A stretch of DNA of 41,086 nucleotides, taken from assembly GCA_900313905.1 (NCBI GenBank), contig OMTG01000138.1, positions 1 to 41,086 on the forward strand. Direction: 5' to 3'. Positions 38,669 through 41,086 of this stretch are shown here, one piece after another. Under the pieces are notes generated by a model, which saw nothing but the letters and a program-made list of their open reading frames with translations, was not told where the DNA came from and did not search any database. A program made the position numbers and the translations under genes. Positions within the stretch are counted from its first letter, which is position 1. Each line of letters starts with the position of its first letter. This DNA is from an uncultured Actinomycetes bacterium (lineage in GTDB: Bacteria; Actinomycetota; Coriobacteriia; Coriobacteriales; Atopobiaceae).

Positions 38669-39955
38669 CTAGGCCAGCGGCTTGATGACCTCCATGTCGC
38701 GCATGTACGGGCGCAGCACCTCGGGGACGGTGATGGAGCCATCGGCATTCTGGTAGTTCTCCATGATTGCCGCCATGGTCCTGCCCACAGCCAGGCCAGA
38801 GCCATTGAGCGTGTGGACCAGACGGGTGCCCTTGAAGTTCGCAGGGTCGCGGTACTTGATGTTGGCACGACGAGCCTGGAAGTCCCAGCAGTTGGAGCAG
38901 GAGGAGATCTCCTTGTAGTTGTTGTAGCTGGGCAGCCAGACCTCGAGGTCGTAGCACTTGGTGGCAGAGAAGCCGATGTCGCCCGTGCAGAGGGTGACCA
39001 CATGGTACGGGAGGCCCAGGAGCTGCAGGCACCTCTCAGCCTCGGCGACCATGCTCTCAAGCTGGTTCATGGAGTCCTCAGGCTTCGCGAACTTCACCAT
39101 CTCGACCTTGTCGAACTCATGGACACGAATGATGCCACGGGTGTCGCGGCCGGCAGAGCCAGCCTCCTCGCGGAAGCAGGGCGTGAAGGCGGTGTACCAG
39201 AGCGGCAGGTCGTCTCCATCGAGCACCTCGTCGCGATGGATGTTCGTGAGCATGACCTCAGCGGTCGGGATCAGGTACATGCCGCCGCTCACGTGGTAGA
39301 GGTCCTCATCGAACTTCGGGAGCTGGCCGGTGCCGAAGAGCGAATCATAGTTCGTGATGACAGGGGGCCACCACTCCTTGAAGCCAGCCTTCACATGGGT
39401 GTCGATGAAGAAGTTGATGAGGGCGCGCTCCATCAGGGCGCCAGCGCCGCCGAGCAGATAGAAGCGGGTGCCGGCAAGCTTGATGCCGCGGTCGAAATCG
39501 ATCATGCCCGTGGAGGGGCCGAGATCCCAGTGGGCCTTCGGCTCGAAGTCGAACTTGGTCGGCTCGCCCCAGCGGCGGACCTCAGGGTTGTCGGAATCGT
39601 CCACGCCGTACGGCACGGACTCATGCGGGATGTTGGGGATGGCAGCGACGAGGTCGAAGAGCTCCTTCTCGACCTCGGCACGGCGGTCGTTCAGGTCGGA
39701 GATGCGCTGCTTGTTGGCGGCGACCTCTGCCTTTGCCGCCTCTGCCTCATCGCGCTTGCCCTCGCGCATGAGCTGGCCGATCTTCTTCGAGACAGCGTTG
39801 CGGTCTGCCTGGAGCTTCTCGACCTCGGCAATCACGGAACGGCGCTCCTCGTCGAGCTCGAAGAACCGCTCACGATCCCAGTGGGCGTTCTGGCGCGATG
39901 CGCAGGACTTGTCCACCACGTCTGGGTTTTCTCTCACGAACTTGATGTCAAGCAT
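38669..39955 (-). CDS. serS: Seryl-tRNA synthetase
   Basis: 428 aa class II synthetase. N-terminal coiled-coil arm (about 28-105, EERRSVIAEVEKLQADRNAV) that grips the long variable arm of tRNA-Ser; motif 2 FTPCFREEAGSAGRDTRGII; SSCSNCWDFQARRANIKYRD; motif 3 NGSGLAVGRTMAAIMEN. ATG 39953-39955 with AGGAGAGG 6 nt upstream. Own promoter and terminator. Three tRNA-Ser genes lie within 10 kb. Confidence 0.97.
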   Translation of the reverse strand: MLDIKFVRENPDVVDKSCASRQNAHWDRERFFELDEERRSVIAEVEKLQADRNAVSKKIGQLMREGKRDEAEAAKAEVAANKQRISDLNDRRAEVEKELFDLVAAIPNIPHESVPYGVDDSDNPEVRRWGEPTKFDFEPKAHWDLGPSTGMIDFDRGIKLAGTRFYLLGGAGALMERALINFFIDTHVKAGFKEWWPPVITNYDSLFGTGQLPKFDEDLYHVSGGMYLIPTAEVMLTNIHRDEVLDGDDLPLWYTAFTPCFREEAGSAGRDTRGIIRVHEFDKVEMVKFAKPEDSMNQLESMVAEAERCLQLLGLPYHVVTLCTGDIGFSATKCYDLEVWLPSYNNYKEISSCSNCWDFQARRANIKYRDPANFKGTRLVHTLNGSGLAVGRTMAAIMENYQNADGSITVPEVLRPYMRDMEVIKPLA

Positions 39956-39997
39956 CTGACACCTCTCCTTATCTGTGCAATGCTCGTCTGCCCCTTG

Positions 39998-40479: not shown

Positions 40480-40512
40480 GAAAGAACGCACCTGCCATCT
40501 TGGCAAGTGCGT
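40478..40512 (-). terminator. Terminator of the ancestral tRNA locus
   Basis: ACGCAC-TGCC (40486-40496) / GGCA-GTGCGT (40502-40512) with one mismatch, followed leftward by TTCTTTCATTT. It lies 15 bp beyond the tRNA 3'-end copy, where a tRNA terminator is expected. Confidence 0.75.
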
Positions 40513-40526
40513 CCGATGAAATGCTA

Positions 40527-40554
40527 TGGTGCGGGCGAAAGGACTTGAACCTTC
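40527..40554 (-). other. tRNA 3'-end fragment, probable attachment site (att)
   Basis: On the minus strand GAAGG-TTCAAGT-CCTTT is a T-arm, followed by CGCCCGC, discriminator A and CCA. The expected 5' partner GCGGGCG, D-arm and anticodon arm are absent, so this is not a complete tRNA. It fits the remnant left at one end of an element that integrated into a tRNA gene (a Leu-type acceptor would fit); the intact tRNA should be at the other end, beyond the right edge. Confidence 0.75.
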
Positions 40555-40697
40555 ATGAGACTCTTTGGGCTTGTGACCTGCGGTTATTCAGATGGACTAG
40601 AAAGGACTAACGTACTTTTGAGCTGGTAAAACGTTGTGACTGTTGGTGTACGGTTTGGACTCGTTAGGACTAGGGTTTTGCGCCAAATTTGCGCCAA
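40541..40697 (+). repeat. Phased GGACT repeats and TTTGCGCCAA direct repeats next to att
   Basis: GGACT begins at 40541, 40594, 40604, 40657 and 40667: intervals 53, 10, 53, 10, all close to whole helical turns. The last four are within AGGACTA/TGGACT-type contexts. TTTGCGCCAA occurs at 40677-40686 and 40688-40697. Such arrays beside an att core resemble integrase or excisionase arm sites. Confidence 0.6.
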
Positions 40698-40717
40698 CTT
40701 TACACCAAGGATTCAGG

Positions 40718-40760
40718 GCAAAAGAGGCACCTACGCGGCTATGAAACGTAGGTGCCTCTT
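40718..40760 (-). terminator. Terminator at the element's last gene
   Basis: 14-bp stem AAGAGGCACCTACG (40722-40735) / CGTAGGTGCCTCTT (40747-40760), followed leftward by TTTTGCC. Confidence 0.9.
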
Positions 40761-40832
40761 GCTATCCGCGTGCGTGTGCACCGCACGGGCAAGGCGGGTG
40801 AAAGAAAGGAGGAAAGCCCCGCCCGATGTTGT

Positions 40833-41086
40833 CTACTCCAAAGCCTTCACAACGTCGCTCGGCACATCGTTGCCCACAATCGCCCTGCAAGTGTCGATGT
40901 AGTACGGCTTTGCCTCGATATCGGCCACGAACTGCGCGGCCCTCGCGTTGGCGGGCACGGGTGCGCCGCCGCCCCACTTGTAATCGTGGTATGCCGCACT
41001 CGCGTCGCTGCTAATCTCCATTGAGCTACGCCCGTCCCATTGCAGGATGTTGTTAGCGGCCCGCTGCAAGGCGTCTACCGCGTCTC
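40833..41086 (-). CDS. Unknown protein of integrated element, 5' end outside window
   Basis: Only the last 83 residues are visible, open to the right edge; stop TAG at 40833-40835. Content: NNILQWDGRSSMEISSDASA, YHDYKWGGGAPVPANARAAQ, VADIEAKPYYIDTCRAIVGN and VPSDVVKALE. No family recognised. It is the first gene inside the putative att site and ends at its own terminator, so it is probably accessory cargo or an element protein. It is not a recognisable integrase C-terminus (no Tyr-recombinase HxxR...Y pattern). Confidence 0.6.
   Translation of the reverse strand, partial: DAVDALQRAANNILQWDGRSSMEISSDASAAYHDYKWGGGAPVPANARAAQFVADIEAKPYYIDTCRAIVGNDVPSDVVKALE

Follow-up and report, generated by a model that had tools for sequence, protein, structure and literature searches.

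Excisionases (RDFs) bind direct repeats that lie one helix turn apart, and they do so cooperatively and head to tail, bending the att DNA (PMC7498355). In the Xis/Cox/Apl systems, including the X1-X1.5-X2 array of lambda and those of phage 186 Apl and Pukovnik Xis, the sites are short one-turn direct repeats located between the core and the arm sites (PMC7498355). A further parallel is offered by the RdfS/IntS system of ICEMlSymR7A, in which RdfS, an HTH_17 RDF, acts in attL of a tyrosine-integrase att site with one monomer for every 10 bp (PMC11963761).

The locus described here lies in a window of 41,086 nucleotides that is the entire contig C19 of genome G000, and it resembles both of these systems. 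Like the Xis/Cox/Apl arrays, it carries short one-turn direct repeats in the core-to-arm interval of an element that encodes an RDF of the same fold family; like RdfS/IntS, it pairs an HTH_17 RDF with a tyrosine-integrase att site. Unlike the Xis/Cox/Apl arrays, however, the repeats form two clusters 5-6 turns apart in the arm away from int, their binding by an RDF is a prediction, and G000 and its closest complete relative, G073, have the same sites despite divergent RDF sequences. In contrast to RdfS, which is without a clear consensus motif, the motif here is explicit and repeated, and while ICEMlSymR7A is a large ICE, the window element is about 6 kb. The locus is most likely a well-made example of a known arrangement as opposed to a new arm-site layout, and the GGACT pairs that characterize it are probably binding sites for the element's RDF within the attL of a tRNA-Leu(CAG) element.

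An Attachment Site in tRNA-Leu(CAG)

The segment 40526-40559 of the window recurs on a second contig of the same genome, C113, as the 3' end of a full-length tRNA-Leu(CAG) gene encoded on the minus strand. The genes on C113 encode first a 63-aa HTH_17 protein, then a repressor-like HTH protein and a 422-aa tyrosine integrase (PF00589, 3.3e-22; PF14659, 1.8e-07), and beyond the integrase gene come two 11-bp repeats (TTTGCGCCAA and TTTACGCCAA), a hairpin and then the core. Because the core and the arm repeats are found on both contigs and int is on C113, the end of the window is assigned as attL and C113 as attR, and the two most likely belong to one element that was split by assembly. A duplicated core equal to a tRNA 3' end, an adjoining recombinase and arm repeats on both sides are the features of an att site of a tRNA-targeting tyrosine integrase, and all of them are present here. 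The features of the window are as follows.

40526-40559, no strand: attL core of 34 bp, matching attR on C113 exactly; 3' end of tRNA-Leu(CAG), with the tRNA on the minus strand
40552-40676, plus strand: spacer (P-type arm) of 125 bp from the core T-loop to the first arm repeat; equal in length in G073 and G069
40574-40578, plus strand: in-phase degenerate unit TGACC; TGACA at the matching position in the relative with 55% integrase identity
40594-40608, plus strand: GGACT pair 1 (40594, 40604) with one-turn spacing; proposed sites for RDF/Xis
40637-40641, plus strand: degenerate unit TGACT, in phase with pair 2 and two turns upstream of it
40657-40671, plus strand: GGACT pair 2 (40657, 40667) with one-turn spacing; proposed sites for RDF/Xis
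40677-40708, plus strand: three tandem 11-bp integrase arm-type repeats (TTTGCGCCAA, TTTGCGCCAA, TTTACACCAA)
40833-41084, minus strand: first element gene, truncated by the contig end; by eye, like the C-terminus of a protein (255 aa) of the G073 element

The initial annotation had reported two copies of the repeat, 11 bp apart, after the GGACT array; they are present, but as three copies (40677-40686, 40688-40697 and 40699-40708), the third of which, TTTACACCAA, reads TTTACGCCAA in the relative. At attR, two copies lie between int and the core, as compared with three at attL, and a tandem pair of an element-specific motif of this 11-bp type is found at both ends of every relative that was delimited. 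Judged by sequence, the TTTGCGCCAA repeats are the integrase arm sites. Since they occupy both ends of the element while the GGACT pairs occur at one end only, the suggestion that the latter could identify a new integrase arm-site layout is not supported.

To the left of the element, a gene at 38669-39959 on the minus strand appears by eye to encode a seryl-tRNA synthetase. The tRNA-Ser(GCT) and tRNA-Arg(ACG) genes near the window element have counterparts upstream of the G120 and G052 elements, and the three elements seem to have an insertion neighbourhood in common.

Two One-Turn Pairs of GGACT

GGACT starts at positions 40541, 40594, 40604, 40657 and 40667 of the window, giving steps of 53, 10, 53 and 10 bp, just as initially described. 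In a scan of the whole window with any 5-mer, GGACT was the sole word with such an a,b,a,b spacing, and no 5-mer showed the pattern in 60 Markov-shuffled 41-kb windows. The regularity is thus real and far beyond chance. The array was also said to start inside the att core. The copy at 40541-40545 does lie within the attL core, but it belongs to the T-loop of the tRNA-Leu fragment (GGACTTGAACC), and every tRNA-Leu or tRNA-Phe element seen has the same T-loop GGACT in its core. It is a host-type tRNA sequence outside the element's array and, therefore, the element's own array consists of two pairs in a 10-53-10 layout. These four copies form two one-turn direct-repeat pairs with the core on one side and the arm sites on the other, and GAC-containing half-matches lie in phase at 40574 and 40637. 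Comparison with the other att end did not reveal a second array, as the attR arm is without GGACT except in the tRNA core.

Related Elements and Their Spacers

The closest relative, in G073, is a complete 5.95-kb element on one contig (L037 1506-7490), with an integrase 97% identical and an attL 97% identical to those of G000. By comparison with it, the G000 element would be small, about 5-6 kb. A more distant relative in G069 is an 8.4-kb element whose integrase is 55% identical to that of G000. Nine further elements with the same integrase family, from other genomes of the bacterial order (G298, G233, G275, G424, G120, G303, G339, G036 and G052), were delimited at both ends; they span 3.4-9.9 kb and are integrated in tRNA-Leu, tRNA-Phe or tRNA-Thr. 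The elements of G303 and G339 are the same and those of G298 and G233 nearly so, and merging near-identical cases leaves nine distinct spacers, which are not all strictly independent in that G036, G052 and G120 are mutually homologous in the spacer region. The more distant integrase matches in G462 and G433, together with contig C56 of G339, were left out, as no core repeat was found in the DNA examined. A query of viral contigs with the integrase protein gave no close relatives, and a scan of genome contigs gave only two, both already known.

Members of this family (3.4-9.9 kb, tRNA-integrated) encode an integrase, an HTH_17 protein and a repressor-like HTH protein, to which the G073 element adds a DnaD-like helicase loader and a phrog_2412 protein. 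The small tRNA-integrated elements of this order are possibly phage satellites.

The one-turn repeat is not peculiar to the window. An exact 5-mer repeat at a lag of 10 occurs in seven of the nine distinct int-distal spacers (core to arm repeats), the exceptions being those of G424 and G120. When these spacers were shuffled, a mean of 1.1 had a lag-10 repeat, and none of 3000 shuffles reached seven at any lag from 6 to 60; windows of the same length from element interiors gave a mean of 0.82 and a maximum of five in 5000 draws. The int-side spacers, in contrast, have no lag-10 repeats (0/9). This one-sidedness, along with the helical phasing, agrees with the earlier proposal of a structured recombination complex.

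The repeated motif is element-specific (GGACT, GTAGACA, GAGGGG, TAGGAA or GGAATCTCG). G000 and G069 have spacers of equal length, 125 bp, with GAC units in common at positions 23, 43, 53 and 106 of the spacer (P about 5e-5); G069 has AGACA in place of GGACT, with units largely in register with those of G000. In G036 and G052, units lie near spacer positions 21, 31, 83 and 93, a 10-52-10 layout, and the remaining spacers, of 99-116 bp, carry their repeats at other positions. Preservation of the spacing had been named as the test of the array, and the 53-bp step is kept in the 97% relative and in part in the 55% relative; one other lineage has a similar 10-52-10 layout, and the rest do not keep it. 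The one-turn repeat is general and the two-cluster layout is common to two lineages, while an exact 53 bp is no rule.

The HTH_17 Protein as the Probable RDF

Each complete element encodes one HTH_17 protein, and the HTH_17 domain is present in all 11 aligned sequences. Profile searches match it to Pukovnik Xis (1.7e-10), the best relative of solved structure, and to BldC. For the predicted structure of the G000 protein (mean pLDDT 82), the best fold matches are to Pukovnik Xis, BldC and RdfS, with Z scores of 7.6-7.9; for a small common domain, scores under 8 cannot decide the matter by themselves. It is because of these profile and fold matches, together with the published RDF repeats, that the GGACT pairs are proposed as RDF sites. 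Direct observation at this locus extends to the att core pair, the integrase, the arm repeats at both ends, the one-sided 10-bp repeats and an HTH_17 protein with a Xis fold match; an RDF array is characterized by one-turn direct repeats, a core-to-arm location in one arm only and an encoded RDF homologue, and each of these is found.

The most likely mechanism can be outlined. The small element has been inserted by its tyrosine integrase into the 3' end of tRNA-Leu(CAG), and the HTH_17 winged-helix excisionase would bind both GGACT pairs, its monomers arranged head to tail with one for each 10-bp unit. A distance of 5-6 turns places both clusters on one helix face, from which they would bend the 125-bp spacer and so allow the integrase to bridge from the core to the TTTGCGCCAA arm sites in an excision geometry. 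Both the binding of HTH_17 to GGACT and the bending of the DNA are what we infer from these features.

A complication arises from the comparison of G000 with G073. Their HTH_17 proteins are only about 32-34% identical, yet they have the GGACT sites in common (97% DNA identity). In BLAST comparisons, int and the att arms (L005 2290-3629 plus window 40526-40731, set against L037) form a block of 95-97% identity between the two, and most of the other stretches that match are at 72-74%. The block, which is contiguous as int-attP in the excised circle, looks like a recent module swap between these elements, and the GGACT sites travel with it and not with xis. Either the RDF is permissive, as has been reported for the class, or one of the elements has a mismatched RDF, or the integrase reads the repeats. 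No GGACT-like repeat was found in the region upstream of the G000 xis gene. Upstream of the G073 xis gene (L037 4940-4980) are AGGACA and AGGACT units 20 bp apart, possibly reflecting autoregulation; the second overlaps a likely ribosome-binding site, both are absent in G000 and the signal is weak.

A broader generalization may also be entertained, although it is rather improbable: that a two-cluster RDF layout of one-turn pairs about five turns apart on one helix face is conserved while the motif drifts, with the sites moving with the integrase and not the excisionase. Were this true, excisionases would read spacing or shape above sequence, or the integrase would read the repeats.

The G000/G073 pair, with the same sites and different excisionases, provides a direct test of specificity for excisionases of this fold, and comparing int-distal arms for one-turn repeats would make RDF sites readable from sequence alone. 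A limited literature search returned nothing relevant on Coriobacteria elements of this kind.

Alternative Explanations for the Repeats

An alternative possibility, although an unlikely one, is that the GGACT pairs are an additional class of accessory arm sites, bound by the integrase itself; this would explain why they travel with int. The inheritance of the sites and int as a single block of 95-97% identity with a differing xis is consistent with this, as is the resemblance of one GGACT copy (GAAAGGACTA) to the core (GAAAGGACTT). However, clear arm sites for the integrase already exist at each end of the element, whereas GGACT-type repeats occur at one end only, with none in the nine int-side spacers; the likeness to the core is seen in just one of the four copies; and, because int and attP are contiguous in the circle, linkage alone explains the co-inheritance. 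For the same lack of resemblance in three of the four copies, the idea that the GGACT copies are core-type integrase sites was rejected.

Host factors bend the arms in lambda-type sites, and core-to-arm spacers of about 100-125 bp require bending, so an IHF- or HU-like architectural protein of the host could be imagined to bind the repeats and bend the arm. This is improbable given that, within a single bacterial order, the motif varies by element, a variation that speaks for a binder encoded by the element. Slightly more improbable is that the pattern is what remains of a 63-bp tandem duplication in the arm, to which no protein binds. Two successive 63-bp units do match at 29 of 63 positions (P 0.0006), but outside GGACT the match falls to 19 of 53 (P 0.08), so the likeness resides mainly in the units; these are also in register in the 55% relative, and other spacers carry 10-bp repeats of their own. 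That the repeats are operators of a transcription regulator for the leftmost gene, apart from recombination, is the least credible reading, for although regulating transcription is within the repertoire of HTH_17 proteins and RDFs (PMC7498355, PMC11963761), no promoter-like site was found in 40480-40840 and, in every relative with such repeats, they sit between the core and the integrase arm sites.

Matches in Viral Contigs

Tandem arm-type repeats such as TTTACGCCAA are known from other phages and islands, and the same 11-bp motif is present in 18 viral contigs, none of which has GGACT pairs in the DNA that was fetched. In many of these (L008-L025), the TTTACGCCAA tandem repeats lie just upstream of genes that appear by eye to encode integrases, and the motif is a widespread one for arm sites. 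Searching viral contigs for a pattern of four GGACT copies gave 12 matches, which were set aside as mostly simple tandem or coding repeats. One of the 12, an unrelated virus contig with a P4-like integrase (L077 1701-1769, minus strand), carries two one-turn GGACT pairs beside a tRNA-Asp core.
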